Source: Methanoregula sp. (GTDB lineage: Archaea; Halobacteriota; Methanomicrobia; Methanomicrobiales; Methanospirillaceae). From it: 64,000 nt of DNA. Made by a program: the position numbers and the translations under genes. Positions 15,324 through 64,000 of this stretch are shown piece after piece; the stretch's first letter is position 1, and each line of letters starts with the position of its first letter. Location of the stretch: contig JAUSBW010000268.1 in the NCBI GenBank assembly GCA_030651815.1, positions 1 through 64,000 on the forward strand, given 5' to 3'. Below the pieces are notes generated by a model, which saw only the letters and a list, made by a program, of their open reading frames with translations, did not search any database and was not told the origin of the DNA.

Positions 15324-15590
15324 ATGGCATTTGCAGTGCATATTAACATGGTAAACTGTACTGGCTGTAACAATTGTGTAGTCGCGTACCCCGTCGACGC
15401 ATTGGAACTTCATACTGTGGATCCATCAACATATGATAAGATCTATAAAGTCAGGGACGGCAAGTCCATTGTTCTTGACTTCAAAGGTGAACTCTGCGCC
15501 GGTTGCGGTGTTTGCGTTCAGGCATGCCCGCACGATGTTATTAAGCTAAAATTACCCTGGGAATCCAGAGCACAGGCAAACGTACTATAA
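15324..15590 (+). CDS. fwdG: FwdG-type 2x[4Fe-4S] ferredoxin with one altered cluster
   Basis: An 88-residue dicluster ferredoxin that feeds electrons to formylmethanofuran dehydrogenase. The second motif is complete (CAGCGVCVQACP). The first reads CTGCNNCVVAYP, with Tyr where the family has the fourth Cys (codon TAC rather than TGC). The N-terminal cluster may thus have a non-Cys ligand, a [3Fe-4S] form, or be lost; alternatively a single-base sequencing error explains it. It starts the fwdG-fwdF-hdrCBA-mvhD operon, 23 bp before fwdF. Confidence 0.85.
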   Translation: MAFAVHINMVNCTGCNNCVVAYPVDALELHTVDPSTYDKIYKVRDGKSIVLDFKGELCAGCGVCVQACPHDVIKLKLPWESRAQANVL

Positions 15591-15613
15591 TGGTATTGCA
15601 TGAGGGTTAATTC

Positions 15614-16810
15614 ATGAACAATCTGTTTCCCAAATTTTCCAAAAAGAGGGATGGGGTCAACGTTGTAATGGAGCAGAAACTCCTTCAGAACGTGAACAAC
15701 CTTATTCTCAATGCAGAGACCTGCACGGGATGCGGTATATGTGTGGAGGCTTGTCCTGAGGAAGCTATTGTCCTCGGGCTCGTCGGTGCATCGAAGCGTG
15801 GCGCAATCAATTACGCTGCTCCTGTCGATGTCGACGAGGTCAAGTGTTCATACTGCGGCGTCTGCGTCATAATGTGCCCATTCAATGCATTGACCTTAAA
15901 AGTGGATGGACAGGAGAGACTACCGATCCTTGAGAAGGAAGGGTTCCCGCAATATGATATGAAAGCTGAGATTGATGACGAGAAATGCGTCAAGTGCACG
16001 ATCTGCGAAGAGGTCTGCCCGCGTGACGCCATTGACCGCAACGTCCCTGCTTTTGAAGGAACCTACAAAGGACCGGTTATTGGAGCAAGGGAAAGGCAGA
16101 CAGCGATCAAAACCAAGACGACCTTTAAGGTTGATATGGAAAAATGTTCGTTGTGCGGTCTTTGTGGCGCACTCTGTCCGGCAATCACGGTAAAACACAA
16201 GGAATTTACCGCAGAAACCGGAAAAGTCGAGGCAGTTGCTGACCCGAACACCGGGCTCCCGTGGGACGAGACCAAATGTGATGCATGCAAGGTGTGTGTC
16301 GAGGCATGTCCCGAAGAGTGCATCACCGTCGAGCGCGAGGTTATCAGCGATAAAGTTGAGGGCAAGGTCAGCATTATCCAGGACAACTGCTGCACCTGCC
16401 AGTGGTGTTCACGTAATTGCCCGCCCGAGGCAATAACGGTAGAGAAGATTTTTGAAGGAGATATTGAATTCCACGCCGAGAAATGCCCCGGTGGCTGCTC
16501 AACGTGTGCAGATATCTGCCCGGCAAATGCGATCTATCTCCCGAGCCCGGTTGCAGCAGCTGACATGAAACGTGACAGCATTGAAGCAACCATTGCAGTC
16601 AACAAGGATTACTGTATCCTGTGCGGAGCGTGTGTCAACGCCTGCCCCGGTGAAGACATCATTGTTATGCAGAGGACCGGCGTTCGTATGAAAGGCACGG
16701 AGACTGACCTGTTCAAGAAGATCAAAGAGAAACTTTTCACCAAGAGAACCTCGAAGGTCAAAGAGGAGATCACCGGACAGGTTAACCTCAAACAGATGGA
16801 GAAGGCGTGA
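15614..16810 (+). CDS. fwdF: Polyferredoxin FwdF
   Basis: 398 residues with eight [4Fe-4S] motifs, all with the usual terminal CP: CTGCGICVEACP, CSYCGVCVIMCP, CVKCTICEEVCP, CSLCGLCGALCP, CDACKVCVEACP, CCTCQWCSRNCP, the CPGGCSTCADICP variant and CILCGACVNACP. That count equals the known FwdF polyferredoxin, which wires formylmethanofuran dehydrogenase to HdrA. The catalytic subunits are not here but at 57727-61859, so the complex is encoded at two loci. It is directly followed by hdrC with a GTGA overlap, consistent with a physical Fwd-Hdr supercomplex. Confidence 0.93.
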   Translation: MNNLFPKFSKKRDGVNVVMEQKLLQNVNNLILNAETCTGCGICVEACPEEAIVLGLVGASKRGAINYAAPVDVDEVKCSYCGVCVIMCPFNALTLKVDGQERLPILEKEGFPQYDMKAEIDDEKCVKCTICEEVCPRDAIDRNVPAFEGTYKGPVIGARERQTAIKTKTTFKVDMEKCSLCGLCGALCPAITVKHKEFTAETGKVEAVADPNTGLPWDETKCDACKVCVEACPEECITVEREVISDKVEGKVSIIQDNCCTCQWCSRNCPPEAITVEKIFEGDIEFHAEKCPGGCSTCADICPANAIYLPSPVAAADMKRDSIEATIAVNKDYCILCGACVNACPGEDIIVMQRTGVRMKGTETDLFKKIKEKLFTKRTSKVKEEITGQVNLKQMEKA

Positions 16811-17397
16811 GTTCCATGGTAAGAACAAAAGGTTACCCAGCAGCGCTGGATCAGAAACTCCAGGACACGAGACTTCACAATGATGACTCAAACCCTGAGT
16901 TCACGAAGAACGTGAAAGCCATCTCACGCACTACTGCACACATGTGCTACCAGTGCGGAACCTGTACCGGCTCCTGCCCGTCTGCTCCCCGCAGCACTTA
17001 CCGCATCCGCAAATTTATGCGGAGAGCGGTGCTCGGGCTTGAGAACGAAGCATTGACCGATCCGGATCTCTGGCTCTGTACTACCTGTTACAGCTGTTCA
17101 GACCGCTGCCCACGGGATATCATCCCCACAGATGTCATCATGGCCATGAGGAACCTCGCATTCAAGAGAGATATTATACCGGTCAACTTCCTCAAGACTG
17201 TGCAGTCTATCTATAAGACCGGACACGGTGTGCCCAACAACGATGTCAACCGTGCAGCCCGCGAGAAGATCGGGCTCTCACGCGACCCGCCGACCACCCA
17301 TATGTACCCTGAATATATCCCCGGCATCCAGAAGATCCTTGACCACTACAACCTCAAGGCAAATTCCGACCGGATTGTAAAGGAAAGGGAGGGCTAA
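16807..17397 (+). CDS. hdrC: Heterodisulfide reductase subunit HdrC
   Basis: 196 residues with two [4Fe-4S] motifs, CYQCGTCTGSCP and CTTCYSCSDRCP, typical of HdrC, which carries electrons from HdrA to the HdrB active site. GTG 16807 overlaps the fwdF stop and has GGAG at 5-bp spacing; ATG 16816 is the alternative. It is a soluble cytoplasmic subunit in the hdrCBA order, 6 bp before hdrB. Confidence 0.94.
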   Translation: MSSMVRTKGYPAALDQKLQDTRLHNDDSNPEFTKNVKAISRTTAHMCYQCGTCTGSCPSAPRSTYRIRKFMRRAVLGLENEALTDPDLWLCTTCYSCSDRCPRDIIPTDVIMAMRNLAFKRDIIPVNFLKTVQSIYKTGHGVPNNDVNRAAREKIGLSRDPPTTHMYPEYIPGIQKILDHYNLKANSDRIVKEREG

Positions 17398-17403
17398 GAT
17401 ACC

Positions 17404-18321
17404 ATGTCAGAATCAAAATTCAAGTTCGCATTCTATCTCGGCTGCATTGCCCCCAACCGGTATCCCGGTGTCGAATCTGCCTCCATCAAGGCCATGAAAA
17501 AACTCGGCGTTGAGCTGGTTCCCTTAAAGGGTGCAAGCTGCTGCCCGGCACCAGGTGCATTCGGTTCTATCGATCTCAATGTATTCTATGCAATGGCAGC
17601 CCGGAATCTTGTCCTTGCTGAGCAGATGAAGATGGATATCGCCCTTGTCTGCAACGGTTGCTATAAGTCGATCTGGGAAGTCAACCACAAGCTCAAGCAC
17701 AACAAGGATCTCCGCGACAATGTCAACGAAGTTCTCAAGGAAGTTGACATGGAGTACAAGGGTACCATCAACGTGTACCACACTGCTGAGCTTCTTTATA
17801 ACGACAAATTCATCGGGGTCGACAAGGTTCGCGACAGCGTCACCAACCCCCTGACGGGAGCACGCATCGCAGTCCACTACGGATGTCACTTAACAAAACC
17901 CCACAAGGACCGGGAGTTTGAAAAGGAGGTCATGCTCAATACCGAGCACCCCGTATGGATGGAAGAACTGGTTGCTGCACTCGGTGCAACTCCGGTGGAA
18001 TACCGCAACAAGATGCAGTGCTGTGGCGCCGGCGGCGGTGTCCGTGGGTACGATATTGTCCATGCGCTGGACATTGCCAATGAGAAACTGATCAATATAA
18101 CAGAGCAGAAGGTGGATGCCCTCACGGATATCTGCCCGTTCTGTCAGCTTCAGTTTGACCGCGGTCAGATCGAGATACAGGAAAAGTTTGGCGTGTCATA
18201 CAATTTACCCGTACTGCACTATGCCGAACTCCTCGGTCTGGCACAGGGAATGAGTCCGCAGGATCTCGGGCTGGATCTCCATGGAATCAGCTGCGAATCG
18301 TTCCTTCAGAAGGTGTTGTGA
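17404..18321 (+). CDS. hdrB: Heterodisulfide reductase catalytic subunit HdrB
   Basis: 305 residues with two CCG-type domains that hold the paired non-cubane [4Fe-4S] clusters which split CoM-S-S-CoB. The first Cys block includes GASCCPAPGAFGS, with VCNGCYKS following; the second has HYGCHLTKP and the C-terminal MQCCGAGGGVRG with DICPFCQLQFD. Length is normal. Encoded between hdrC and hdrA in one operon. Confidence 0.95.
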   Translation: MSESKFKFAFYLGCIAPNRYPGVESASIKAMKKLGVELVPLKGASCCPAPGAFGSIDLNVFYAMAARNLVLAEQMKMDIALVCNGCYKSIWEVNHKLKHNKDLRDNVNEVLKEVDMEYKGTINVYHTAELLYNDKFIGVDKVRDSVTNPLTGARIAVHYGCHLTKPHKDREFEKEVMLNTEHPVWMEELVAALGATPVEYRNKMQCCGAGGGVRGYDIVHALDIANEKLINITEQKVDALTDICPFCQLQFDRGQIEIQEKFGVSYNLPVLHYAELLGLAQGMSPQDLGLDLHGISCESFLQKVL

Positions 18322-18332
18322 GGTGGTAAAAA

Positions 18333-20456
18333 ATGGTAGAAAAGAAGAAAACAACCACCAAAAAGACCGAGACCAAAAAAAAGGACACAAAGAAGGTGGC
18401 ACCCGTGAAACAGGAAATTAAAAAACAGGCACCCGTGAAGACAGGGCCCTCTGAGAAACCGCGTATCGGCGTTTTCATCTGTCACTGCGGTACCAACATT
18501 GCCGGCTCTATTGATATCAAGGATCTGGAAGCGTACGCAAAGACCATCCCGAATGTGGCCCACACAGACAACTACCAGTATGTCTGTTCCACACCCGGTC
18601 AGAAAAAAATTACCGATGCCATAAGAGACCAGAAACTCACCGGTACCGTTGTGGCGGCATGCTCACCGCGTCTCCATGAGCCAACCTTCAGGACAGCAAC
18701 CAAGGAAGGTGGCTTAAACCAGTTCCGGTTCGAGATGGCAAATATCCGCGAGCAGAATGCGTGGGTGCACATGCACGACAAGGAGGGTGCAACCGATAAG
18801 GCAAAGGATACCATACGGATTGCCGTTGCCAAGGCATCACTCTTAGAGGATCTCACACCCAAGACCGTGCCAGTCGAAAAGGCGGCAATGGTCGTAGGCG
18901 CAGGTATCGCAGGTATGCAGGCAGCACTCGATCTCGCTGCCGCTGGCATCAAGACCTACCTCATCGAATCTGCCCCGAGCATTGGCGGACGCATGTCCCA
19001 GCTGGACAAGACGTTTCCCACACTCGACTGTTCCCAGTGTATCTTAACCCCCAAGATGGTGGATGTCGGACGGGACTCAAATATCGAGCTGTACACCTAC
19101 TCTGAAGTCGATGCAGTCGAAGGTTACATAGGCAACTTTGACGTGACCATCCGCAAGAAGGCACGCGGTGTGCTCACCATGGCGGAGGCTGAAGCCCGCG
19201 GCATTATCGGCGGCGGCTGTAACGGCTGCGGTGACTGCGACCCGGTCTGCCCGGTTGTCAAGCCTAACGTGTTCGAGATGGGCATGAAGCCCAGAAAGGC
19301 GATCTACATCAACCACCCGCAGGTTGTCCCGCTTCTCTACACCATCGACTTTGACTCCTGTGTCAAGTGCGGGCTGTGTGTCACTGCCTGTGGTCCGGAG
19401 AGGAAGGCAATCGATCTCGAAGCAAAAGACGAATTTATCAAGGTCAAGGTGGGTACTGCCATTCTTGCAACCGGGTTTGAACTGTTCCCGATCGAGAAGA
19501 AGACTGAATGGGGATACAAGAAGTTTGAAAACGTCATCACCGGTCTCGAATTCGAGCGGCTGATCTGTGCTTCGGGCCCGACAAGCGGACATCTCGTCCG
19601 CCCAAGCGATGGCGAGACCCCCAAGCGCATTGCATTCCTGCTCTGCGCAGGGTCGCGTGACAACACCGGTGTTGGCAAGCCCTACTGCTCGCGGTTCTGC
19701 TGCATGTATTCATTAAAGCATGCCCACCAGATCTATGAGAAGATCCCGGGTGCCCAGACATACATCTTCTACATGGATATCCGGTCATTCGGTAAGGCGT
19801 ACGAGGAGTTCTATTACCGCATCCAGGATGAGGGTACAAAGTTTGTCCGCGGCCGTGTGGCCAACATCCTTGAGGATCCCAAGTCAAAGAACCTTCATGT
19901 CTATGCAGATGATACCCTGCTCGACCGCCCGATGGATCTGGAAGTCGATCTCGTAGTGCTCGCATCTGCAGTACAGCCATCTGAGGATACCAACCGGACC
20001 CGCAAGCTGTTCGGTGTCTCCTGTTCCATGGACGGCTGGCTGTTAGAAGCCCACCCGAAGTTAAACCCGTGCGGTACCACTACTGCCGGTGTCTTCCTTG
20101 CCGGTGTCTGCCAGGGACCAAAAGATATCCCCGACACCGTAGCATCTGCTGAAGGCGCAGCATCTGCGGCCAGTATCCCCATCCACAAGGGTGAGGTTGA
20201 ACTCGAGCCGTACTTTGCTACCTGCATTGAAGAGAAATGCGCAGGCTGCGGTATGTGTGTGAACCTCTGCCCGTACAGTGCCCTTGCGCTTGTCGACAAG
20301 GATGGTCGCACAGTCATGGAAGTAACCGAAGCCAAATGTAAAGGCTGCGGTACCTGCGGGGGCTTCTGCCCCGGTGGTGCAATCTGGATGAACCACTTTG
20401 CAACCCCCCAGATCGTGGCACAGATCGATGCATTCCTGCTCGGAGGTGAGCAGTAA
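18333..20456 (+). CDS. hdrA: Heterodisulfide reductase FAD subunit HdrA
   Basis: 707 residues. It holds the bifurcating FAD that passes electrons from MvhD both to ferredoxin and to HdrBC. Visible are GVFICHCGTNIAG, the FAD-binding VVGAGIAGMQAALDLAAAG, the Cys-rich CSQCILTPKM region, an inserted CNGCGDCDPVCP, CVKCGLCVTACG and the C-terminal dicluster domain (CAGCGMCVNLCP, CKGCGTCGGFCP). The first ~42 residues are an unusual Lys/Thr-rich extension (KKKTTTKKTETKKKDTKK and on) of no family role I know, possibly for docking. Followed by mvhD with no gap. Confidence 0.95.
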   Translation: MVEKKKTTTKKTETKKKDTKKVAPVKQEIKKQAPVKTGPSEKPRIGVFICHCGTNIAGSIDIKDLEAYAKTIPNVAHTDNYQYVCSTPGQKKITDAIRDQKLTGTVVAACSPRLHEPTFRTATKEGGLNQFRFEMANIREQNAWVHMHDKEGATDKAKDTIRIAVAKASLLEDLTPKTVPVEKAAMVVGAGIAGMQAALDLAAAGIKTYLIESAPSIGGRMSQLDKTFPTLDCSQCILTPKMVDVGRDSNIELYTYSEVDAVEGYIGNFDVTIRKKARGVLTMAEAEARGIIGGGCNGCGDCDPVCPVVKPNVFEMGMKPRKAIYINHPQVVPLLYTIDFDSCVKCGLCVTACGPERKAIDLEAKDEFIKVKVGTAILATGFELFPIEKKTEWGYKKFENVITGLEFERLICASGPTSGHLVRPSDGETPKRIAFLLCAGSRDNTGVGKPYCSRFCCMYSLKHAHQIYEKIPGAQTYIFYMDIRSFGKAYEEFYYRIQDEGTKFVRGRVANILEDPKSKNLHVYADDTLLDRPMDLEVDLVVLASAVQPSEDTNRTRKLFGVSCSMDGWLLEAHPKLNPCGTTTAGVFLAGVCQGPKDIPDTVASAEGAASAASIPIHKGEVELEPYFATCIEEKCAGCGMCVNLCPYSALALVDKDGRTVMEVTEAKCKGCGTCGGFCPGGAIWMNHFATPQIVAQIDAFLLGGEQ

Positions 20457-20915
20457 ATGTCAGCTCCTGGAAATTTCAAGATCCCCGAACGCGGGCCCGG
20501 TATCTGGCAACCCAAGATCATCGGTCTTCTCTGCAACTGGTGTTCATACGCCGGTGCAGACCTTGCCGGTGGCGGCCGTATCCAGTACCCGCCCGATGTC
20601 AGGGTTGTCCGTGTCATGTGTACCGGACGCCTTGACGCACTGTTTGTCTTAAAGGCTTTTGCCGATGGCGCAGACGGTGTGCTCGTATCAGGCTGCCACT
20701 TTGGTGACTGCCACTATCTTGAAGGCAACTACAAGTCAGCAAAGCGGATGTTCATGGTCAAGCGCCTGATGAAGAGCATCGGCCTTGATGACCGCCGCTT
20801 CAGGATGACGTTCGTCTCTGCTTCCGAAGGTGCAAAGTGGGCAGCTGTCATTACTGATGTGGTCAACACGGTGACAGATCTGGGGCCAAGCCCCATCACC
20901 GAGTTCAGGAAATAA
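20457..20915 (+). CDS. mvhD: MvhD-type [2Fe-2S] electron-transfer subunit
   Basis: 152 residues. It links the electron donor enzyme to HdrA. Conserved Cys: LLCNWCSYAGADLAGG, RVMCTGRLD and SGCHFGDCHYLEGN. In hydrogenotrophs the donor is MvhAG hydrogenase, but MvhA and MvhG are not nearby; in Methanomicrobiales formate dehydrogenase or other hydrogenase subunits can take this place. Last gene of the operon. Confidence 0.92.
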   Translation: MSAPGNFKIPERGPGIWQPKIIGLLCNWCSYAGADLAGGGRIQYPPDVRVVRVMCTGRLDALFVLKAFADGADGVLVSGCHFGDCHYLEGNYKSAKRMFMVKRLMKSIGLDDRRFRMTFVSASEGAKWAAVITDVVNTVTDLGPSPITEFRK

Positions 20916-52613: not shown

Positions 52614-52746
52614 CCCTATGGTATCACGTGCGCTCTCCTGAAGAGATGATGATCACTTCCCGTTTTACGGAAATGCGAGGCCGGATGTTCCAGCAATATA
52701 AAAAAGACGGCCTCTCACCGGGTAATTATTTTTGATACTGAATATT

Positions 52747-53589
52747 ATGACAGCAAAAACTCATGAACACACTGACCCGAAGGGTGCATCCCATGCCCCC
52801 AAAGGGTTGCCACCGAAGGCTAAGATCGATGTCAAACACGTGATCCTCGTCCTGAGCGGCAAGGGGGGCGTTGGTAAATCAACCGTTTCCACCAACCTTG
52901 CTTCTGCTCTCGCGGCTCACGGCAGGCAGGTCGGGCTACTCGATCTCGATATCCATGGCCCCAACATTCCCAAGATGCTGGGCATCGAAGACCAGCGCCC
53001 GGCCGTTCTTGAAAACAGCATGGAACCGGTCCATGTCACAGGAAATCTCTCGGTCATGTCGATGGCATTCCTGCTGCCGGATACGAGCACACCGGTTATC
53101 TGGCGCGGGCCGATGAAGATGGCGGTGATCCAGCAGTTCCTCTCTGAAGTGAACTGGGGTGCGCTGGACTACCTTGTTGTGGATCTCCCACCCGGTACCG
53201 GGGACGAAGCACTCTCCATTGTTCAGCTCTCACCGAACGTGCAGGGAGCTGTCATCGTGACCACCCCGCAGGAGGTGGCTGTGCTCGATGCGATCAAGGC
53301 AATCAAGTTCATAGAAAAACTGGACCTGCCGGTGATTGGGATCATCGAGAACATGAGCGGCATGATCTGTCCCCACTGCGGGGATACTATAGACCTGTTC
53401 GGCAGGGGTGGCGGGGAGAAGGCTGCACAGGAACTGGGCGTGCCGTATCTTGGCTCCATCCCGCTCGATCCGGCGATGGTGAAAGCCGGTGATGAGGGGC
53501 GCCCGTATGTCCTCCGTCATGCGGATACCCCCACATGGAAGGCCGTGGATGCCGTGATGAAAAATCTGGTAAAACTGGTTGAATCCTGA
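52747..53589 (+). CDS. Mrp/NBP35-type P-loop ATPase (1)
   Basis: 280 residues. Iron-sulfur cluster carrier ApbC/NBP35: Walker A LSGKGGVGKSTVSTNLA, DLDIHGPNIPKMLGI, VVDLPPGTGDEALSI and the cluster CxxC MICPHCGDTIDLFG. Delivers [4Fe-4S] clusters to apoproteins. A closely related copy is at 56749-57621, so this is a duplication. Confidence 0.92.
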   Translation: MTAKTHEHTDPKGASHAPKGLPPKAKIDVKHVILVLSGKGGVGKSTVSTNLASALAAHGRQVGLLDLDIHGPNIPKMLGIEDQRPAVLENSMEPVHVTGNLSVMSMAFLLPDTSTPVIWRGPMKMAVIQQFLSEVNWGALDYLVVDLPPGTGDEALSIVQLSPNVQGAVIVTTPQEVAVLDAIKAIKFIEKLDLPVIGIIENMSGMICPHCGDTIDLFGRGGGEKAAQELGVPYLGSIPLDPAMVKAGDEGRPYVLRHADTPTWKAVDAVMKNLVKLVES

Positions 53590-54454: not shown

Positions 54455-54859
54455 ATGACGGACAAAAGAGAGATTGAATTGCCCCAATGCCCCCGCAGGG
54501 GAAGACCCCGTATCCGGCGCATCATTGAAGGGACCGGGGAGTCGCGCTGCTACGAACCCCGCTGCTGCCCGCATGAAGACGGTATCGTAATCTCTTTAAA
54601 ACCTGAAGAGATTGAACTTATCCGTCTTGTCGATCTCGAAGGGCTCGAACAGGAAGAAGCCGCAGCAAAACTGGGAGTCTCCCGCAAAACTGCGTGGCGC
54701 GATCTGCATGAAACCCGGAAAAAAATTGCCGATGCACTGGTGAATGGCAAGGGTATCGAGATGTCCGGGTGCCGGAAAGCAGCGGAAGGCCAGTGCCCGA
54801 AATGCTATCGCAGAAAGGGAGAACACAGGGTCGCTCACAATGAGAGTACATTCGCGTAA
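54455..54859 (+). CDS. DUF134 (UPF0251) HTH regulator (2)
   Basis: 134 residues: leader CPRRGRPRIRRIIEG, Cys-rich RCYEPRCCPHEDG, HTH LEQEEAAAKLGVSRKTAWRD, KIADALVNGKGIEMSGC and the Cys end CPKCYRRKG. Complete unlike the copy at 39874. Candidate regulator of the NifX/Mrp/AtwA group; metal or cluster sensing through its Cys is plausible. Confidence 0.85.
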   Translation: MTDKREIELPQCPRRGRPRIRRIIEGTGESRCYEPRCCPHEDGIVISLKPEEIELIRLVDLEGLEQEEAAAKLGVSRKTAWRDLHETRKKIADALVNGKGIEMSGCRKAAEGQCPKCYRRKGEHRVAHNESTFA

Positions 54860-55102: not shown

Positions 55103-56689
55103 ATGACCACACCATTTCTTTCTGTTGATAATCTCTGCATGGAGTTCGAGGGAAAAAAAGTCTTAAACAACATTTCCTTTGAGATCCCCGAAGGCGAGAT
55201 CGTCGGCGTCATTGGCAGGAGCGGGGCGGGAAAGAGCGTGCTTATGCACCTGCTCAGGGGCGTTGAGCAGCCCCCGACAAGCGGTTCTGTGATCTACCAC
55301 CTGAGCACCTGCAACACCTGCGATCACATGGAAGTGCAGAGCCGGGCCGGAAACCGCTGCCCATCGTGTGGAGGAAAACTGATCGCAACGGACGTTGATC
55401 TCTGGGGCGAGGAGACGGACGGCATGAAAGCCCGGGTGATGCACCGGACTGCGATCATGTTCCAGCGGACATTTGCCCTGTATGGCGATGACCGGGTGAT
55501 CGAGAATGTGCTCCACGCGCTCGATGATATCAACTACCCACAGGAGCATGCGATCACAAGAGCGGCGGACCTTATTGACCAGGTACGGCTCTCGCACAGG
55601 ATGATGCACATTGCCCGCGATCTCTCAGGAGGCGAGAAGCAGCGGGTAGTGCTCGCCCGGCAGCTCGCAAAGAACCCGGCACTGCTCTTTGCCGACGAAC
55701 CGACCGGTACGCTCGATCCAGAAACCGCGCGTATTGTGCACAGCATGCTCATTGAAGCAGCACAGAGAAACGCGATGGGCATGATCGTCACCTCGCACTT
55801 CTCGCAGGTGATTGAGGATATGGCGAACCGTGCGATCCTCCTTGTTGACGGGAAGATCGAACACATTGGATCCCCAAAAACGGTGATCCGCACGTTTGCC
55901 AAAGGTCAGCACGAAGAAGAGCGGACCGCACCTGCGGAGTTCGGGGAGAAGATTCTTTCCGCACGGGATGTGACCAAGCGCTACATCTCGGTGGATCGCG
56001 GGGTGGTGAAAGCGGTAAACGCAGTCACGTTCGATGTTGCCCAGAGAGAGATCTTCGGTATTATCGGCAAGAGCGGGGCGGGCAAGACCACCCTCTCCCG
56101 GATCATATCGGGTATCATCGAACCCACCAGTGGCGAGATGAACATCCGTATCGGTGATGACTGGGTGGACATGACAAAGCCCGGCATCGACCAGCGGGGC
56201 AGGGCCAAGGAGTATATCGGCCTGCTCCACCAGGAATATGATCTCTTCCCGCACCGCACGGTGCTCGACAACCTGACAGACTCGATCGGTCTTGAATTTC
56301 CCAAGGAGCTTGCCATGCGTAAAGCGCTCGTCACCCTCGCTATGGCCGGGTTTGAGCCGGAACGGGCTCACGAGATCCTTGACCGGTACCCGGCAGAACT
56401 CTCCGATGGCGAGCGGCACCGGGTAGCACTCGCCCAAGTGCTCATCCGCGAGCCGCGCCTCGTGATACTCGATGAACCGACCGGCACCATGGACCCGATC
56501 ACCAAGCAGGATGTGAAGCACTCGATCCTGCACGCCCGCGATGAGATGGATGAGACTTTTATCGTGGTCTCGCATGACATGGACTTTGTACGGGATGTGT
56601 GCGATCGTGTAGCCCTGATGCAGGGCGGAAAAGTGATCGAGATAGGAAAGACTGCTGACGTGCTCGCCGGCATGAATGAGAGCAACTGA
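55103..56689 (+). CDS. atwA: Mcr activation component A2, ABC-type ATPase AtwA
   Basis: 528 residues with two ATPase domains. Domain 1: Walker A GRSGAGKSVLMHLLRG, an inserted zinc finger (CNTCDHM...CPSCGGK, about residues 72-95), signature LSGGEKQRVVLARQL, DEPTGTLDPE. Domain 2: GKSGAGKTTLSRIISG, LSDGERHRVALAQVL, LDEPTGTMDP. This is the layout of component A2, which uses ATP to reactivate Mcr by reducing F430 to Ni(I). Its place among NifX, DUF5320, DUF134 and Mrp genes ties Mcr activation to cluster delivery. Confidence 0.92.
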   Translation: MTTPFLSVDNLCMEFEGKKVLNNISFEIPEGEIVGVIGRSGAGKSVLMHLLRGVEQPPTSGSVIYHLSTCNTCDHMEVQSRAGNRCPSCGGKLIATDVDLWGEETDGMKARVMHRTAIMFQRTFALYGDDRVIENVLHALDDINYPQEHAITRAADLIDQVRLSHRMMHIARDLSGGEKQRVVLARQLAKNPALLFADEPTGTLDPETARIVHSMLIEAAQRNAMGMIVTSHFSQVIEDMANRAILLVDGKIEHIGSPKTVIRTFAKGQHEEERTAPAEFGEKILSARDVTKRYISVDRGVVKAVNAVTFDVAQREIFGIIGKSGAGKTTLSRIISGIIEPTSGEMNIRIGDDWVDMTKPGIDQRGRAKEYIGLLHQEYDLFPHRTVLDNLTDSIGLEFPKELAMRKALVTLAMAGFEPERAHEILDRYPAELSDGERHRVALAQVLIREPRLVILDEPTGTMDPITKQDVKHSILHARDEMDETFIVVSHDMDFVRDVCDRVALMQGGKVIEIGKTADVLAGMNESN

Positions 56690-56748
56690 CATCACACCTC
56701 CTGCTAATGCATCGGGTTGTTCACACACCAACAAGGATGAATTACACC

Positions 56749-57621
56749 ATGACACAACACACATCTGCCAAAGATACAAACTGCGATGAGAACGGCTCCA
56801 GCTGCTCTTCCGGATCAACACCCCAACCCCAGAAAGGGCTGCCGCCGCGATCAAAAATCGACGTGAAGCATGTGATCCTTGTGCTCAGCGGGAAAGGAGG
56901 AGTAGGCAAGTCCACGGTCTCGGTTAACCTCGCATCCGCACTCTCCGCTCACGGGAGAACTGTGGGACTCCTCGATCTCGATTTTCATGGCCCCAACATC
57001 CCCAAGATGCTGGGCATCGAAAGCCAGAAACCAGCCGTTATAGAAAAGCACATCGAGCCTGTGCATGTAACCGGAACGCTTTCGGTAATGTCGATGGCAT
57101 TCCTGCTGCCGGACACGAGTACCCCGGTGGTCTGGCGCGGACCGATGAAGATGGTGGCGATCCGGCAGTTCCTTGATGAAGTGAACTGGGGAACGCTTGA
57201 CTACCTTGTCGTGGATCTGCCTCCGGGAACCGGAGACGAGGCCCTCTCGATCGCGCAACTGGCACCGAACGTGAAAGGTGCAGTCATTGTGACGACACCG
57301 CAGGATGTGGCTGTGCTGGATGCAGTCAAATCGGTGAAATTCATCCAGAAACTGGAAATTCCGGTCATCGGCATCATCGAGAACATGAGCGGGATGATCT
57401 GCCCCCACTGCGGAGATACCATAGACCTGTTCGGAAGGGATGGCGGGAAGAAGGCGGCTGAAGATCTGAACGTTCCGTTTCTCGGTGTAATCCCCCTTGA
57501 CCCGGAGATGGTGAAAGCCGGTGACGAGGGGCGACCCTACGTCCTTCGCCATACAGATACACCTACGTGGAAGGCCGTGGATGCAGTTATGGAAAAACTG
57601 GTAAAACTGGTCGAGTCCTGA
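56749..57621 (+). CDS. Mrp/NBP35-type P-loop ATPase (2)
   Basis: 290 residues, paralog of 52747-53589 with the same blocks (GKGGVGKSTVSVNLA, DLDFHGPNIPKMLGI, MICPHCGDTIDLFG). The N-terminal leader has extra Cys (TNCDENGSSCSSGS). ATG 56749 chosen by alignment with the paralog. Directly downstream of atwA, so probably supplies clusters for that ATPase's work. The next 105 bases hold no gene. Confidence 0.92.
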   Translation: MTQHTSAKDTNCDENGSSCSSGSTPQPQKGLPPRSKIDVKHVILVLSGKGGVGKSTVSVNLASALSAHGRTVGLLDLDFHGPNIPKMLGIESQKPAVIEKHIEPVHVTGTLSVMSMAFLLPDTSTPVVWRGPMKMVAIRQFLDEVNWGTLDYLVVDLPPGTGDEALSIAQLAPNVKGAVIVTTPQDVAVLDAVKSVKFIQKLEIPVIGIIENMSGMICPHCGDTIDLFGRDGGKKAAEDLNVPFLGVIPLDPEMVKAGDEGRPYVLRHTDTPTWKAVDAVMEKLVKLVES

Positions 57622-57726: not shown

Positions 57727-58497
57727 CTAATACAACCCGGTGCTCCGCACGCAGAGATTACCTTTCCCCCGGTTTGCCACATCGCCTTTGTACACATCCG
57801 CAGTGATCTTCCATTCGGGAAGCACCCGCCTTTCAATCTTTTCAAAGGTGGGGAGCATGTCGTGCACCGTGCCCAGAATCACACAGGAGCCGTTCTTCAT
57901 GTTCCCGCAGGGCCGGGTGGCGTCGCCTTCTATGATCAGCTCCCCGCCCCGCATCTCCGCGCCGGGGAAATCACCGGTGCTGCCATGGATGTGCACCGTA
58001 CCGCCTGCAAGGTATTCAGCGCAGAAATCCCCGGTATTGCCAGACACTTCCACTTTCCCGCCCTGCATACCTTTCTTCTCGCCGCGGTAGCCGGTTGCGC
58101 AATAATGGCCCGCATTGCCCCGGCAGAGGATCGTCCCCCCCCGCATCTCCCGTCCGAGCCACGCATCGGCATTGCCACGGATCTCGATCGTTCCGCCGCT
58201 CATGAAGTTCCCGCAGTGCATGCCGATGTCTCCTTCTATCACGATACTGCCGGTGTCCATGTACTCCCCGACCCGCTTGATCCGTGAAGTATCGCCTTTG
58301 AGTATCACCTCAATGTTTTCAGGAGAGACCGCAGTCCCTTCGACAAAGATCCAGAACAGTTCAGAGAGCGTGCGCTCCTTGTTGCCCTCGAACACCACAT
58401 GATCGGTGCCTTTTAAGAAATTGCGGGGGATAATCGCCTCTGCTTCAATCGGGAGGTTGGGCTTACTCCGCACCTTGCTCTCGAGGATCACTCTCAT
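57727..58497 (-). CDS. fwdC: Formylmethanofuran dehydrogenase subunit C
   Basis: 256 residues. Right-handed beta-helix with repeated GG-x5-GN (GGTIEIRGNADAWLG; GGTILCRGNAGHYC; GGKVEVSGNTGDFC; GGTVHIHGSTGDFPG) as in the glutamate synthase C-terminal domain. It supports FwdA and FwdB. ATG 58497 overlaps the fwdA stop (ATGA); an 8-codon extension upstream is not typical. Confidence 0.94.
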   Translation of the reverse strand: MRVILESKVRSKPNLPIEAEAIIPRNFLKGTDHVVFEGNKERTLSELFWIFVEGTAVSPENIEVILKGDTSRIKRVGEYMDTGSIVIEGDIGMHCGNFMSGGTIEIRGNADAWLGREMRGGTILCRGNAGHYCATGYRGEKKGMQGGKVEVSGNTGDFCAEYLAGGTVHIHGSTGDFPGAEMRGGELIIEGDATRPCGNMKNGSCVILGTVHDMLPTFEKIERRVLPEWKITADVYKGDVANRGKGNLCVRSTGLY

Positions 58498-60194
58498 GTA
58501 AATGCCTCCGTCTCTATGCACCGTCCGCGGGGGAGGTACACATCCTGCACCGGGTAATTGCTCATTCTCACGGTGTAGAACTGCTCGAATCTCTTAATAA
58601 ATTCCGGGTCGTTCTCCATTCTGATATCCTCCGGTACCTTCGCATCTACCCAGAAGGTCGCATTTGCACCATCCACGATGATCTCCCCGTCCCGCGATAC
58701 CACGCGTCCCCGCTTGATCGTGTACCGGGTCTTCTGGAACCCTTCGACTACTTTCCGGTATTCCCGGGCCGGGTCAACAGAATCCGTCCGGATCGGATAG
58801 ATAGCGATGTCGGCTTCCGCACCGACACCGAGATGGCCTTTGCCCTGGCTGACGATGCCCAGCGCCTTTGCCTGCCCTGCCCGGGTCATGACGGCGATAT
58901 CGTGCCAGTCCATCTCCCGTTCAAGCGCATACAGTGAGGTCTTCTGCTCGGTACCGGCATGCAGGGCGGCGCATTCCTCGTCCCTGTACCGCTTGCTCAT
59001 CAGAAGGCCAATGACTTCGGGATACTTCACAAACGGTGCACCGTTGGGGTTGTCAGTCTCGAGCAGGCACTGCCATGGATTTTTTGTAAGAAGAGCCAGT
59101 TCGAGGCCGATCGCCCACATGATGCAGTTCACTGTACTCTTTTTAGAGTACGTTACCGGGATGATACCGGACCCGGTCTCCAGTTCCACATCGTGGTTGC
59201 TCCACTTGTTGTTATGGAGGCAGTGGAGGTTGAACTCCATAGGCCCGTCAGCGGTCATGGTCATGGTCCGGCCGAACATGATCTGGCCCATGTCCATCAC
59301 GATCTGGGGTTTGCTGTTGACCAGGCGGGTGATCTCTTCTGCCTTGGAACAGATGTTCTTCCATGTCCCGCCGCCATACGCATGGAACTGCACATGGGTG
59401 GCATACAGGGTCTGGCGTGCGTCGTTCAGGTCGGGCACGAGCTCGAATGTCTCTAGCGTGGTCTGGTAATTGCCGGGCTTTCCTAAGTTGTTGCAGTGCA
59501 GGTGCACCGAGTGGGGGAGTTTGAGGAGTTCGTTTGCCCGGATCATGGTGGTGATGATCTCGGCAGGAGTTACTGCGAAATGCGGAACCGTGTCATGAAT
59601 ACCGGTCAGATCCTCGCCCCAGCCCCATGCCTCGGTACCACCGGGATTTGTCAGTTTGATCCCATATCCTCTGGCTGCTTTCAGCGTCCATGCGACCACC
59701 GCCGCAGTTTTCCGTATATCTTTTTCCCGCACCGCATCCATGACTGCCCAGTTGCCGTCGAAGAGGGTGTTGGCCATCATGTCCTGGTGGGGAGTTGCCG
59801 TGAACTCCTCGTGGGTGTGGCGGGCTTCTAAGGGAGCCATCGCCCCTTCGAGCAGGGTGGTGTACCCCATGGCGCTGTACCGGTAGCTGTTCCCGAACGT
59901 GGTCGGGACATAGTAGCCGCTCGTCACATGCATCTTCCCCTTGCGCTTCGTACGTCCTGCACGCATGTCCTCCGGGCTCATGTACCGCCCGAAGTTCACC
60001 TTGGTGCCGCTGACATGAGTGTGCGAGTCAATACCGCCGGGCAGGGTGAGGCACCGTTCTGCATCGATCACCTCAGCCCGGTCCGACACCGACTCCACGA
60101 TCCGGCCGTCACGGATTGCGATATCCATGATATCCCCGTTTATGCCACGGATAGGGTCAATGACACAGGCATTTTTTACCCATAATTCGGTCAT
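58494..60194 (-). CDS. fwdA: Formylmethanofuran dehydrogenase subunit A
   Basis: 566 residues, a metal-dependent amidohydrolase. GGIDSHTHVSG carries the first two His; a long barrel follows to GRVVSRDGEIIVDG. It condenses formate made by FwdB with methanofuran. Start overlaps the fwdB stop by 4 bp. Full length. Confidence 0.95.
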   Translation of the reverse strand: MTELWVKNACVIDPIRGINGDIMDIAIRDGRIVESVSDRAEVIDAERCLTLPGGIDSHTHVSGTKVNFGRYMSPEDMRAGRTKRKGKMHVTSGYYVPTTFGNSYRYSAMGYTTLLEGAMAPLEARHTHEEFTATPHQDMMANTLFDGNWAVMDAVREKDIRKTAAVVAWTLKAARGYGIKLTNPGGTEAWGWGEDLTGIHDTVPHFAVTPAEIITTMIRANELLKLPHSVHLHCNNLGKPGNYQTTLETFELVPDLNDARQTLYATHVQFHAYGGGTWKNICSKAEEITRLVNSKPQIVMDMGQIMFGRTMTMTADGPMEFNLHCLHNNKWSNHDVELETGSGIIPVTYSKKSTVNCIMWAIGLELALLTKNPWQCLLETDNPNGAPFVKYPEVIGLLMSKRYRDEECAALHAGTEQKTSLYALEREMDWHDIAVMTRAGQAKALGIVSQGKGHLGVGAEADIAIYPIRTDSVDPAREYRKVVEGFQKTRYTIKRGRVVSRDGEIIVDGANATFWVDAKVPEDIRMENDPEFIKRFEQFYTVRMSNYPVQDVYLPRGRCIETEAFT

Positions 60195-61480
60195 GGTCCC
60201 ATACCCCCGTTCAGAAGATCATAGATTTTTTTGAGGATCTCTGCATCATCCGGGTACCCGCGGTCGATTACTTTTTTCAGCCGGATGGGCACCCCGTCCA
60301 TCCGGTATGCGGTCCCAGCGGCATCGATACCCGCAGCGGTACAGGGAATATGGATGCGGGAGAGGGCGGTCGTCGCGTTCACGTGCGGATCGATAACTAC
60401 AGTCGGGATCTTTGCCAGGTGGGCCGCGGCAGCCCGGGGGAAATTTGCACCCGGATCACTTGCCACGATGAGGGCCGCATCACACTCCCCCCGCCGCAAT
60501 ATGTCCACTGCGGTCGTTTCCCCAGGATTGTAGAAGGCGATGCCCCGGGCAAAATCAACGGCAAAAGGATACCCGGTCATCCACGTGAAGACTTCATTGG
60601 AACCATAAACATTCCCGTGTCCTCTTAAGGGAGAGATCACAAATTTCGTATGCCGGTTGAGTTCGTCGGTGAGCTCGATGGCATTCCGAATGTTCTTGTA
60701 TTTTCCACGGCTCATGGTGAGACCGAGACCAAAGAAGATCGCCCCGAACTTTGCCTTTTTGCAGATTTCGGCAATACGGATCAGCTGTTCCTTTGAAACC
60801 CCGGCAACTTTCCGGGGGATCACCGACGCATTTCCCCGCACAATTGCCCGCAGGGCGGAAAACACCGCGTAATCCCCCCCTCGTTCAATCTGCACGAATT
60901 CATCAGCAATATTGGCTGTGTCAGTCCTGCGGGTATCCACCACGATCACCGTACGCTCCCGCCGGGCCTCCGGTACAAAAAAACCGGTAGCATAGGTTGT
61001 GTACCGGCTCATGTGGCGGGGATGCGCCTCTACCGGGTTGGCCCCCCAGTAGATGATCACATCCGCCCGGTTCTTCACCTGCCCGAGAGTGCAGCCGGGA
61101 TGGCCGACTTCCTGGATGGCAAGGATGGACGGGCCGTGGCAGACGGTGCTCGTATTGTCGATGACTGCCCCAATGAGTTCGGCAATATGCACGCCGATGC
61201 TCTGTGCCTCACCGTGCGTGCTGCTCCACCCATAGAGGAGCGGACGGTCTGCATCCCGTAAAATCTCTGCCGTCTCTTTGATCGCTTCGTTATAGGAAAT
61301 ATCCTCCCAGCCGGTCTCAGTGCGCCGTATCGGGGCCGGGAGCCGGGTATCGTTCATAAACGTTGACTCTGCAAGGGAGCAACCGTTCTGCACCTTGACG
61401 ATTTTGCCCCCTTCTGTCTCAAGTTCGAGATCATCGCAGAGGCAGCCGCAGAATGGGCAGACCACATCACGTTCGATCAT
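60191..61480 (-). CDS. fwdB: Formylmethanofuran dehydrogenase subunit B
   Basis: 429 residues. N-terminal [4Fe-4S] Cys at 8, 11, 15 and 34 (VVCPFCGCLCDD...NGCSLA). STVCHGPS puts the W/Mo-ligating Cys at 114, so the enzyme is the Cys form, not selenocysteine. It reduces CO2 to formate with a bis-pyranopterin cofactor. Overlaps fwdD by 14 bp. Confidence 0.94.
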   Translation of the reverse strand: MIERDVVCPFCGCLCDDLELETEGGKIVKVQNGCSLAESTFMNDTRLPAPIRRTETGWEDISYNEAIKETAEILRDADRPLLYGWSSTHGEAQSIGVHIAELIGAVIDNTSTVCHGPSILAIQEVGHPGCTLGQVKNRADVIIYWGANPVEAHPRHMSRYTTYATGFFVPEARRERTVIVVDTRRTDTANIADEFVQIERGGDYAVFSALRAIVRGNASVIPRKVAGVSKEQLIRIAEICKKAKFGAIFFGLGLTMSRGKYKNIRNAIELTDELNRHTKFVISPLRGHGNVYGSNEVFTWMTGYPFAVDFARGIAFYNPGETTAVDILRRGECDAALIVASDPGANFPRAAAAHLAKIPTVVIDPHVNATTALSRIHIPCTAAGIDAAGTAYRMDGVPIRLKKVIDRGYPDDAEILKKIYDLLNGGMGP

Positions 61481-61859
61481 AGCGCAACCCCCCGATCGCT
61501 TCCATGAGTTCCCCTACGCTCTTTATCGGTTCTTCGGTTGGCTCCACATCTACGGACTGGCTCTTGAAGTCCGGCATCCCGGTGCCATGGGTCTCTGAGG
61601 AGATGATGTGGTTGGCATACGGGCCGATTGCCACAAAGATCTCCCCCCGTGCCACCCCCTCAGCGGGACGGGCGGTGAGGACGATATGCCCTGCAGGGGT
61701 GGTGACCCGGACCCGATCCCCGTTCTCGATTCCCAGCATCATCATATCCACGGGATTGAGAAAACAGGCCGATGCAACGGTACTATATAATTCTGATCCC
61801 TTGTGCTCGACAGAAGCTCCCTGCGGAACCGTGCGCCCGGTGTTGAGTATGCACTTCAC
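61467..61859 (-). CDS. fwdD: Formylmethanofuran dehydrogenase subunit D
   Basis: 130 residues, molybdopterin dinucleotide-binding domain: MKCILNTGRTVPQGASVEHK, MMLGIENGDRVRVTTPAGH and SSETHGTGMPDFKSQSVDVEPT. It completes the cofactor site with FwdB. Overlaps the polyferredoxin gene by 4 bp. Confidence 0.93.
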   Translation of the reverse strand: MKCILNTGRTVPQGASVEHKGSELYSTVASACFLNPVDMMMLGIENGDRVRVTTPAGHIVLTARPAEGVARGEIFVAIGPYANHIISSETHGTGMPDFKSQSVDVEPTEEPIKSVGELMEAIGGLRYDRT

Positions 61860-62473
61860 TGCAATTCCTCCTGAACGGGCTGCTGGTATCCTTCAAGGAT
61901 CCGTGCAATCCGGATGGCACCGTTCGGGCAGCTCATCTCGCAGGTCTTGCAGCCCGTGCATTTATCCTCGTGGATCACCACAATATCTCCTTCCTGCACC
62001 CGCATGATCACCTCATCATTCGAGGAATGCCCGCCTGCCCCCATCTGGGCGTCAACCTGCTTGTTGACCGGGCAGGCAGTACAACAGTTCCCGCAGCCGG
62101 TGCAGAGTTCCTTGTCAATCGCGATACGGAACGAGAAGAGCAGCGACGTGCCTTCACGTTCCAGGGTCTCAAGGATCCTCCCGCTTTTTAAAACCCCGTT
62201 CGGGCACGCCTCCACGCAGAGCCCGCAGCGGATGCAATGCCCTTTGTGAATCTTCGGTATCCAGCCATCGCCGGCGTGCACAACCTCGATAGCTCCCGGT
62301 GCCGGGCAGGCCATCATGCAGAAGAGGGCATGCTGGCAGGTCTTTCCGGTCGGTTCCGGAAATCCCCGGAAATACGAGGGGGTTACCAGCGGAGCAGTCT
62401 TTGCAAACAGGAACTTTTTGATCCACTCAGCACGGGCGAACTCTCTTAAGTACCAGATTAGTGATGAACCCAT
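61856..62473 (-). CDS. Polyferredoxin of the energy-converting hydrogenase/Fwd operon
   Basis: 205 residues from ATG 62473 (GGAG 8 bp before). N-terminal helix SLIWYLREFARAEWIKKFLF as in EchF/NuoI-type proteins, then four Cys groups: CQHALFCMMACP (unusual), CIRCGLCVEACP, CTGCGNCCTACP and CTGCKTCEMSCP. Likely carries electrons between the hydrogenase and Fwd. One base separates it from the large subunit. Confidence 0.85.
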   Translation of the reverse strand: MGSSLIWYLREFARAEWIKKFLFAKTAPLVTPSYFRGFPEPTGKTCQHALFCMMACPAPGAIEVVHAGDGWIPKIHKGHCIRCGLCVEACPNGVLKSGRILETLEREGTSLLFSFRIAIDKELCTGCGNCCTACPVNKQVDAQMGAGGHSSNDEVIMRVQEGDIVVIHEDKCTGCKTCEMSCPNGAIRIARILEGYQQPVQEELQ

Positions 62474-62474
62474 C

Positions 62475-63560
62475 TTACCGCTCCGCACATGCAACGCAGG
62501 GATCTGCCGAGATGAACGTTGAGGTGACATCGGCGATCGAATCCGACCCGATGATCATCTCGTGGCAACACGCCTCGATGTTCATGATGGACGGGGGTTG
62601 GATCTGGATCTCCACGATCCGACCGAACTCATCGCTTTTGATAAAGTACGTCAGTTCTCCCCGGGGGGCTTCGCCGCTGTACCGTATCTCTCCTGCTTTG
62701 CAGACGCCTCCGCCCCGTATGACCCCTTTGGGAAGTTCCTGCAGGCATTTCCTGATTAAGGCGATGCTCTGGAAGACTTCATCGAACCGGACCATCACCC
62801 GTGCAAAGTTATCGCAATCCGGCCGGGTGATCGGGACAAAGCCGAGTTTTTTGTAGGTGGGATGGTTCTGCCGGCAGTCATACGCGATCCCGCTCCCCCG
62901 GGCAGTCGGGCCGACCACATGGGCCCGCTGTGCAGCCTCCAGCGTAAGAATCCCGACACCCCGGCTCCGCAGGGCGATCATCGGGCCGTTTTCAAACATC
63001 CCAGTATACCTGCGCAGATCCCCCTCGATCCGGTCAAGCGATGCCTGTAAATCTTCCGCATCCTGACGCGGGATGTCGCACCGGACCCCGCCGGGGATGA
63101 TGTAAGCGCAGGTAACCCGGGCACCGGTCAGGCGCTCCAGTTCGTCCATCACCTGCTCCCGCAGGTCGAGCAGGTACATGCCGAGAGTCTCGTGCTCGAT
63201 GGTGTAACAGTACGAGAAATTGGCCAGCAGGTGGCTCTGCATCCGGTCCAGTTCGTTTACAATCACGCGGAGATACGCGGCACGTGGCGGAACAGAAATA
63301 TCACTGATCTGTTCCATAGCCTCGATAAAGACCATGTTGTGGATCACAGAGCAGATCCCGCAGACGCGTTCTGCAAGGAACATAACTTCCTGCCACGGGC
63401 GCCCTTTCATGATCCGCTCTATCCCCTTCTTCATGTACCCGAGCTCGACTTCGGCGCTGATGATGCGCTCACCCTTTGCCTCGCACTTGAGCCGGACCGG
63501 TTCCTTGAAGCAGGGATGAATTGGCCCTAACGGAATATTGACATCCACGATCCGCTTCAT
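62475..63560 (-). CDS. Energy-converting [NiFe]-hydrogenase large subunit
   Basis: 361 residues of the EchE/Mbh/NuoD type. Both Ni-Fe Cys pairs are present, Cys67-x2-Cys70 (ERVCGICSVIH) and Cys355-x2-Cys358 (DPCVACAER) at the very end, so it is a true hydrogenase and not a complex I-like subunit. Ends right after the second motif, without a cleaved tail. With membrane subunits, presumably beyond the window, it would reduce ferredoxin using H2 and the ion gradient. Confidence 0.9.
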   Translation of the reverse strand: MKRIVDVNIPLGPIHPCFKEPVRLKCEAKGERIISAEVELGYMKKGIERIMKGRPWQEVMFLAERVCGICSVIHNMVFIEAMEQISDISVPPRAAYLRVIVNELDRMQSHLLANFSYCYTIEHETLGMYLLDLREQVMDELERLTGARVTCAYIIPGGVRCDIPRQDAEDLQASLDRIEGDLRRYTGMFENGPMIALRSRGVGILTLEAAQRAHVVGPTARGSGIAYDCRQNHPTYKKLGFVPITRPDCDNFARVMVRFDEVFQSIALIRKCLQELPKGVIRGGGVCKAGEIRYSGEAPRGELTYFIKSDEFGRIVEIQIQPPSIMNIEACCHEMIIGSDSIADVTSTFISADPCVACAER

Positions 63561-64000
63561 GGGTGCTCCTCCTCCCAGTCAAAAAAGACCGAATCGCGGA
63601 CCGACATGATCGCCTGCAGGATCTCGGTAGGACGTGGCGGGCAGCCCGGGACTTCTGCGGCAATCGGGATATGCTTTTTGACCGGAGGATCGACAAAGGA
63701 GCCCTTCCGATCGAAGAGGCATCCGGAGATCGGGCAATTGCCGATGGTGATCGCTGCCTTGGGTGACGGAATCTTATCCCAGACCATGGCAAGTTTCTCC
63801 TCCCATCCCGGGGTATAGGCACCGATCACGAGCAGGACATCTGCTTCCCTTGGATTATTGTGGACAAAGATGCCGTACTGTTCGATATCGTAGCGGGGCG
63901 CTAAGCAGGCGAGCACCTCGATGTCGCAGCCATTGCAGGAGCCGACGTCTACGTATGCTACATGGATTGAGCGTGACCGAACCTTGTTTTTTATCCGCTG
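63557..64000 (-). CDS. Energy-converting hydrogenase small subunit (5' end beyond window)
   Basis: 147 codons inside the window; the frame is open to the edge. IHVAYVDVGSCNGCDIEVLA has the first two proximal-cluster Cys, then IGAYTPGWEEKL, TIGNCPISGCLF and EVPGCPPRPTEILQAIMS the rest. EchC/MbhJ/NuoB type. Overlaps the large subunit by 4 bp. A GTG at 63916 is internal, not the start. Confidence 0.9.
   Translation of the reverse strand, partial: QRIKNKVRSRSIHVAYVDVGSCNGCDIEVLACLAPRYDIEQYGIFVHNNPREADVLLVIGAYTPGWEEKLAMVWDKIPSPKAAITIGNCPISGCLFDRKGSFVDPPVKKHIPIAAEVPGCPPRPTEILQAIMSVRDSVFFDWEEEHP

Follow-up and report, generated by a model that had tools for sequence, protein, structure and literature searches.

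We describe a stretch of 64,000 nucleotides (hereafter the window), bases 1–64000 of a 79,361-base contig (C44) in a 99.9% complete genome whose nearest named relatives are Methanoregula. At its far end the genes of a membrane-bound [NiFe] hydrogenase, Eha, run directly into those of a formylmethanofuran dehydrogenase (Fwd), and both sequence comparison and a structural model suggest that the iron–sulphur protein linking the two is a hydrogenase-type ferredoxin fused to FwdG. We consider it rather likely that together they constitute a membrane Eha–Fwd system in which an ion gradient drives electrons from H2 to CO2 through this fused wire, apart from the route that uses Hdr and FwdF.

The solved Fwd enzymes (5t5i, 7bkb) have FwdG as a small ferredoxin subunit supplying electrons to the catalytic subunit FwdB, and in formate hydrogenlyase and complex I proteins of the HycF/NuoI type sit on the NuoB-like small subunit. 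A single polypeptide with both modules would bridge the hydrogenase small subunit, EhaN, to FwdB.

The linking iron–sulphur protein

An open reading frame of about 200 amino acids, starting one to a few bases past the stop of ehaO (the hydrogenase large subunit gene), is kept in nearly all relatives; the window copy (61856–62473, minus strand) encodes 205 amino acids. A preliminary description of this DNA had called the product a four-cluster polyferredoxin. Four cluster motifs are indeed present, the first of them without its second cysteine (CQHALFCMMACP), but the protein does not resemble a free polyferredoxin. The N-terminal 110 residues (approximately 1–110) resemble HycF of formate hydrogenlyase (1.3e-8), the best single-domain match, as well as NuoI of complex I and, in profile comparisons, MbhN. 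For the C-terminal 85 residues (approximately 113–195), the best stand-alone matches in the PDB are FwdG chains, 9sfi_U (E = 1.9e-16) and 5t5i_G (1.2e-13); the alignment to 9sfi_U is gapless over 76 amino acids, and 14 of its 31 identities come from the 37 residues that separate the two cluster motifs. A single-chain AlphaFold model of the fused protein has a predicted local distance difference test score (pLDDT) of 85.5 and a predicted template modelling score (pTM) of 0.61. Its N-half matches the folds of NuoI and HycF, and the model aligns with 5t5i_G over 80 columns (template modelling score 0.80 by target length), the FwdG chains 8rja_F and 7bkb_L coming next. When eight Eha-bearing Methanomicrobiales genomes are searched in full with a profile of stand-alone FwdGs, the fused domain comes right behind the true FwdGs and ahead of other ferredoxin repeats in seven of them, and a tree of ferredoxin domains groups FwdG with the C-domain at 90/88, a group that also takes in one PorD-like long branch.

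That the C-half is an unrelated two-cluster ferredoxin, FwdG-like in spacing by chance and serving some other acceptor, seems to us highly improbable. Ferredoxins do converge easily and the domain tree is only moderately resolved, but the gapless match takes in the variable stretch between the motifs, FwdG chains are the best stand-alone PDB matches by fold as well as by sequence, and the partner Fwd has no FwdG of its own nearby.

No complete Methanomicrobiales copy that we examined lacks either half, including copies from genomes in which fwdDBAC is located away from Eha. The protein consists of ferredoxin domains only, with no F420-reductase domain of the FwdI type, and its C-half is the only form in which the two-cluster FwdG subunit of this Fwd is present. 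We found no description of the Eha-side protein as a hydrogenase-ferredoxin/FwdG fusion in the openly accessible literature. In 23 of 49 aligned rows, those of the Methanoregulaceae copies and of two further loci (L104 and L102), the first motif (window 62303–62338) has Ala, His, Gln, Ser, Glu or Thr where its second cysteine would be; other families keep the cysteine. This replacement suggests that the first cluster may be [3Fe–4S] or otherwise altered.

Two formylmethanofuran dehydrogenases in one genome

The genome encodes a second Fwd, in a cluster fwdG-D-B-A-C-fdhA on contig C181, whose FwdB is 48% identical to that of the window. This cluster supplies the partner fwdDBAC, with a further fwdG and fdhA, for the other route, which is represented within the window by fwdG-fwdF-hdrC-hdrB-hdrA-mvhD (15324–20915, plus strand). 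Among solved structures, the FwdB of C181 type has its nearest relative in 7bkb_H, from the Methanospirillum hungatei Fdh-Hdr-Fmd complex; for the window type it is 8rja_B rather than a 7bkb-type chain. In a tree of 50 FwdB sequences a branch supported at 100/100 sets the Eha type, unlinked copies included, apart from the rest, and we accordingly rejected the idea that the two Fwd copies are recent duplicates. The preliminary claim of a route apart from FwdF/HdrA holds up in this respect: the two routes look separate, with only the C181 FwdB being closest to the 7bkb Fmd.

The two lineages also differ in the genes around them. Hdr-type Fwd operons contain fwdG and usually fwdF, whereas a small FwdG-like or FwdF-like gene was found within 4 kb of the Eha-type Fwd at none of 85 loci, which disposes of an FwdG overlooked elsewhere near the operon.

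Some further features of these Fwd loci were noted. The stand-alone FwdG beside FwdF in the window (15324–15590) has Tyr in place of the fourth cysteine of its first motif (CTGCNNCVVAYP), a residue present in the other nine of nine FwdGs aligned with it; this is either a real change or an assembly error. On C181 (L007, 5957–16382) two MoeA-like genes precede fwdG-D-B-A-C and fdhA, making the cluster a self-contained set for molybdenum/tungsten (Mo/W) cofactor, Fwd and formate dehydrogenase. Five relatives that lack Eha (L117, L118, L120, L121, L123) have two or three FwdB each, which belong to further clades, and some of the FwdB in Eha-lacking relatives have neither fwdG nor fwdF nearby.

Operon layout and the Eha membrane subunits

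The operon ehaN-ehaO-polyferredoxin-fwdD-fwdB-fwdA-fwdC occupies 64012–57727 of the minus strand, its genes closely packed one after another. The small subunit gene ehaN (63557–64000 and on to its start at 64012, 12 bases past the window edge) encodes a NuoB/Oxidored_q6-like protein (PF01058). The large subunit gene ehaO (62475–63560) has intact L1 (CGICSVIH) and L2 (DPCVACAER) motifs; L2 occurs in 90 of 90 full-length relatives, and L1 reads as CG[IV]C...H in every copy that an L1 pattern search had flagged. After the fused subunit come fwdD (61467–61859), for the pterin-binding subunit (NF042908 E = 7.5e-32, below the narrow cut-off of that model; PF01568 E = 1.1e-15), and fwdB (60191–61480), for the catalytic Mo/W-pterin subunit of the Eha-type clade (TIGR03129 E = 1.2e-184). 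These are followed by fwdA (58494–60194), for the amidohydrolase-type subunit that transfers formate to methanofuran (TIGR03121 E = 6e-236), and last by fwdC (57727–58521, with a likely start at ATG 58497), for subunit C (TIGR03122 E = 7.6e-71). FwdB, FwdA and FwdC score above NCBIfam equivalog cut-offs, and the set of Fwd/Fmd subunits A, B, C and D is complete.

The preliminary description, in which the hydrogenase genes, the polyferredoxin and fwdD-B-A-C overlap without a break, was correct as to the genes and most overlaps. These measure 4 nucleotides for ehaN/ehaO, polyferredoxin/fwdD and fwdB/fwdA, 14 for fwdD/fwdB, and 4 for fwdA/fwdC given a fwdC start at ATG 58497. The sole junction that does not overlap is the one between ehaO and the polyferredoxin, which starts at 62473, a start kept in relatives and lying one base past the ehaO stop. 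The eha-polyferredoxin-fwd order is kept in nearly all of 80 loci from named Methanomicrobiales genomes (Methanoregula, Methanolinea, Methanoculleus, Methanofollis and Methanospirillum). Where it is not, the locus is truncated by a contig end or, in a few cases, rearranged (e.g. L062). The arrangement is therefore not due to chance.

Past 64000, the same strand of the contig carries genes for EhaM, K/L, J, I, H, G, F, E, D, C and B, to about 68612. Domains of the membrane part are PF09218, PF00146, PF10125, PF09878, PF09879, PF09880, PF09881 and PF09882, for which the Pfam names are DUF1959 (EhaM), NADHdh (EhaJ), NADHdeh_related (EhaH) and DUF2105–2109 (EhaG/F/E/D/C); EhaK/L, EhaI and (likely) EhaB are named by position only. 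The preliminary description had reasoned that a lack of adjacent membrane subunits would refute its proposal, and this objection falls because the Eha membrane genes adjoin on the same contig. Of the antiporter subunits for which it had also proposed to look, no full-size one was found among the Eha genes beyond 64000, only the short NuoN-related EhaH.

We found no structure of Eha in the PDB; the nearest solved relative of EhaO is the large subunit of Pyrococcus furiosus MBH (6cfw_L). Methanothermobacter Eha is thought to use polyferredoxins with 6 and 10 clusters (PMC3087415). Such EhaP/EhaQ polyferredoxins are absent from this locus, which has the single four-cluster fusion downstream of EhaO instead, but they lie outside the core of the hydrogenase, and their absence has not kept the Methanomicrobiales enzyme from being recognized as Eha (PMC2686161).

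Two other group 4 large subunits occur in the genome, 35% and 33% identical to EhaO: one belongs to an Mbh-type hydrogenase with Mrp-like antiporter genes on contig C188 (L008), the other lies on contig C238. By the end of the operon are two similar P-loop ATPases of Mrp/NBP35 type (52732–53589 and 56707–57621), with a DUF134-like protein (54455–54859) and an AtwA-like double ABC protein (55103–56689) between them, all named by reading the sequence.

Distribution and natural rearrangements

With presence of EhaO taken as at least 60% identity, 47 of 80 relatives have both EhaO and an Eha-type FwdB and 32 have neither, the one exception (G079) being a genome only 71% complete. The corresponding Fisher p of 1.5e-21 is too strong a figure, because the genes are linked and ancestry is shared. 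Nearly complete genomes of the same genus that lack both (G010, G017, G020, G033, G036) indicate that the Eha/Fwd system is dispensable in some lineages.

In some genomes the parts have come apart, and here we compared Eha loci from Methanomicrobiales and two other groups of the phylum. In four genomes (G048, G053, G068, G073) the Eha-type fwdDBAC adjoins a fwdF-hdrCBA-mvhD-fwdDBAC operon, hundreds of kilobases from Eha, still without an FwdG of its own. The fusion is nevertheless retained in Eha operons distant from fwdDBAC (in G048, about 575 kb away, and in G058), and the FwdG profile also detects the fused domain in G053 and G068. In an outgroup from another family of the phylum (G102/G153), the Eha ferredoxin is a 103-amino-acid protein corresponding to the N-half only, and the Fwd genes sit together with those for HdrA, MvhD and an FrhB/FdhB-like protein; we therefore rejected the C-half as a part of every Eha. 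Two members of a further family (G209 and G352) have Eha with a diverged fusion, and in G209 fwdDBAC lies about 27 kb from Eha with no FwdG or FwdF nearby. The fused-wire reading thus draws on an Eha-type Fwd without its own FwdG/FwdF, on a fusion that persists when unlinked, and on an outgroup Eha that has the N-half alone. As a separate observation, one outgroup cluster (L115, 99–10259, in the 1-Mb genome G102) runs hdrA-mvhD-FrhB/FdhB-like-hdrC-hdrB-fwdDBAC, another wiring of Fwd.

Several points weigh against the fused wire. Most of the co-occurrence stems from linked genes, such that one deletion removes both, and the genomes are not independent. In G076 one FwdF repeat scores slightly above the fused domain with the FwdG profile. 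Ferredoxin domains resemble each other, and the moderately supported domain tree is built on sequences too short to decide by themselves. The single-chain model, at its pTM, leaves the angle and the cluster distances between the halves unfixed, and in Methanoregulaceae the first cluster is short of one cysteine ligand.

The separation of Fwd from Eha in G048 and G058 also bears on the view published in 2009 and 2017, in which Eha reduces a soluble ferredoxin pool preferred by a separate Fwd isoenzyme, with the operon merely co-regulating the two and the four-cluster protein being a subunit of Eha or a carrier without any particular link to Fwd. Distant fwd genes would fit such a pool, as would the polyferredoxins attributed to Methanothermobacter Eha. 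We nonetheless regard this explanation as unlikely, though it keeps some weight, because the C-half looks like FwdG and not like just any ferredoxin, and because no further FwdG or FwdF gene lies close to the Eha-type Fwd.

A possible electron path

The fusion, gene order and Fwd lineages suggest a physical Eha–Fwd complex with a directed flow of electrons. These would enter at the [NiFe] site of EhaO and pass to the cluster of EhaN, then through the two clusters of the HycF/NuoI-like module on the hydrogenase and the two of the FwdG module on FwdB. There the Mo/W-pterin would reduce CO2 to formate, which FwdA would condense with methanofuran, and ion inflow through the Eha membrane subunits would pay for the uphill step. 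No free ferredoxin would be required. The preliminary description had H2-driven ferredoxin handed directly to CO2 reduction; this detail is probably wrong, since with the four-cluster protein read as hydrogenase ferredoxin plus FwdG a diffusible carrier is not needed. The Eha-linked Fwd would then be a second, dedicated isoenzyme beside the Hdr/FwdF/Fdh bifurcating complex, and by analogy with Eha of Methanococcus maripaludis it probably replenishes formylmethanofuran whenever bifurcation does not supply enough.

Could the complex run mainly the other way, so that oxidation of formylmethanofuran would yield H2 and build up an ion gradient, for instance under an excess of methyl groups or formate? 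The formate-hydrogenlyase-like architecture, with an N-half that best matches HycF and an FdhF-like FwdB, is compatible with this direction. We think it improbable, given that the hosts are CO2-reducing methanogens, that H2-driven reduction is a thermodynamic need at low H2 (PMC3087415), and that later papers cite the refilling role of Eha as shown in M. maripaludis.

Relation to known systems

That Eha feeds Fwd, the headline of the preliminary description, is already published, having been proposed in both 2009 and 2017. Anderson et al. (2009; PMC2686161) noted that Eha adjoins Fmd/Fwd in three Methanomicrobiales and proposed that it reduces the Fwd ferredoxin. The operon layout and Eha as a low-potential electron source for Fmd are the same here, but the accessible text of that paper assumes a soluble ferredoxin, mentions no fused FwdG subunit and does not compare two Fwd clades. 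Gilmore et al. (2017; PMC5563889) described Fwd clusters with Eha and with HdrABC/MvhD in Methanocorpusculum parvum and proposed two pools, with separate ferredoxins for each cluster; we find instead that the Eha-side 'ferredoxin' is a hydrogenase-ferredoxin/FwdG fusion across the order, which argues for a wired complex. A 2024 Methanospirillum paper (PMC11346949) repeats the refilling view, and we found no electron cryomicroscopy paper on Eha with Fwd in the openly accessible literature. Relative to the literature found, what looks new is the identity of the polyferredoxin, not the Eha–Fwd operon or the feeding idea.

Three solved systems are instructive. The Methanospirillum hungatei Fdh-Hdr-Fmd complex (PDB 7bkb) likewise delivers electrons directly to Fwd via FwdG/FwdF, but its donor is a bifurcating Hdr acting through FwdF and a stand-alone FwdG, and the copy nearest to its FmdB is that on C181; with no FwdF-like gene nearby and a distinct FwdB clade, the window Fwd does not belong to the Hdr-Fdh/Mvh-Fwd supercomplex type. 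In the F420-reducing Fwd of Ca. Ethanoperedens (PDB 8rja, PMC11493965), whose FwdB is the closest solved one to that of the window, the electron-bridge subunit has been swapped and FwdF lost. Both cases involve re-wiring of Fwd to another redox partner by a bridge-subunit swap, although the partner is an F420 reductase (FwdI) in Ca. Ethanoperedens and a membrane hydrogenase in the present case. In a similar way, formate hydrogenlyase FHL-1 (PDB 7z0s) wires a group 4 [NiFe] hydrogenase via a HycF-type protein to a formate/CO2 Mo-pterin enzyme, but its HycB and HycF are separate, its Mo enzyme is FdhF rather than Fwd, and it runs towards H2. The window system is not itself a formate hydrogenlyase, its partner being FwdABCD with an FwdB above the TIGR03129 cut-off, and the likeness is one of architecture only.

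A broader proposal, for and against which we find the case evenly poised, is that Methanomicrobiales possess a single membrane enzyme, Eha–Fwd, which would make formylmethanofuran from H2 and CO2 through a covalent wire at the expense of the ion gradient. This would be an analogue of formate hydrogenlyase in reverse, keeping its electrons from the free ferredoxin pool and operating beside the bifurcating Fwd.

A standing question for cytochrome-free methanogens is how they refill CO2 reduction at its first, uphill step, from a free ferredoxin pool or through directed channels, and the fusion makes this question testable on one subunit. If the reading is true, the covalent hydrogenase-ferredoxin/FwdG link would make Eha a hydrogenase dedicated to CO2 capture throughout the order. 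Alongside the Hdr and F420-reductase versions, Fwd would then be a unit that archaea connect to one electron source or another by exchanging a single small iron–sulphur part.

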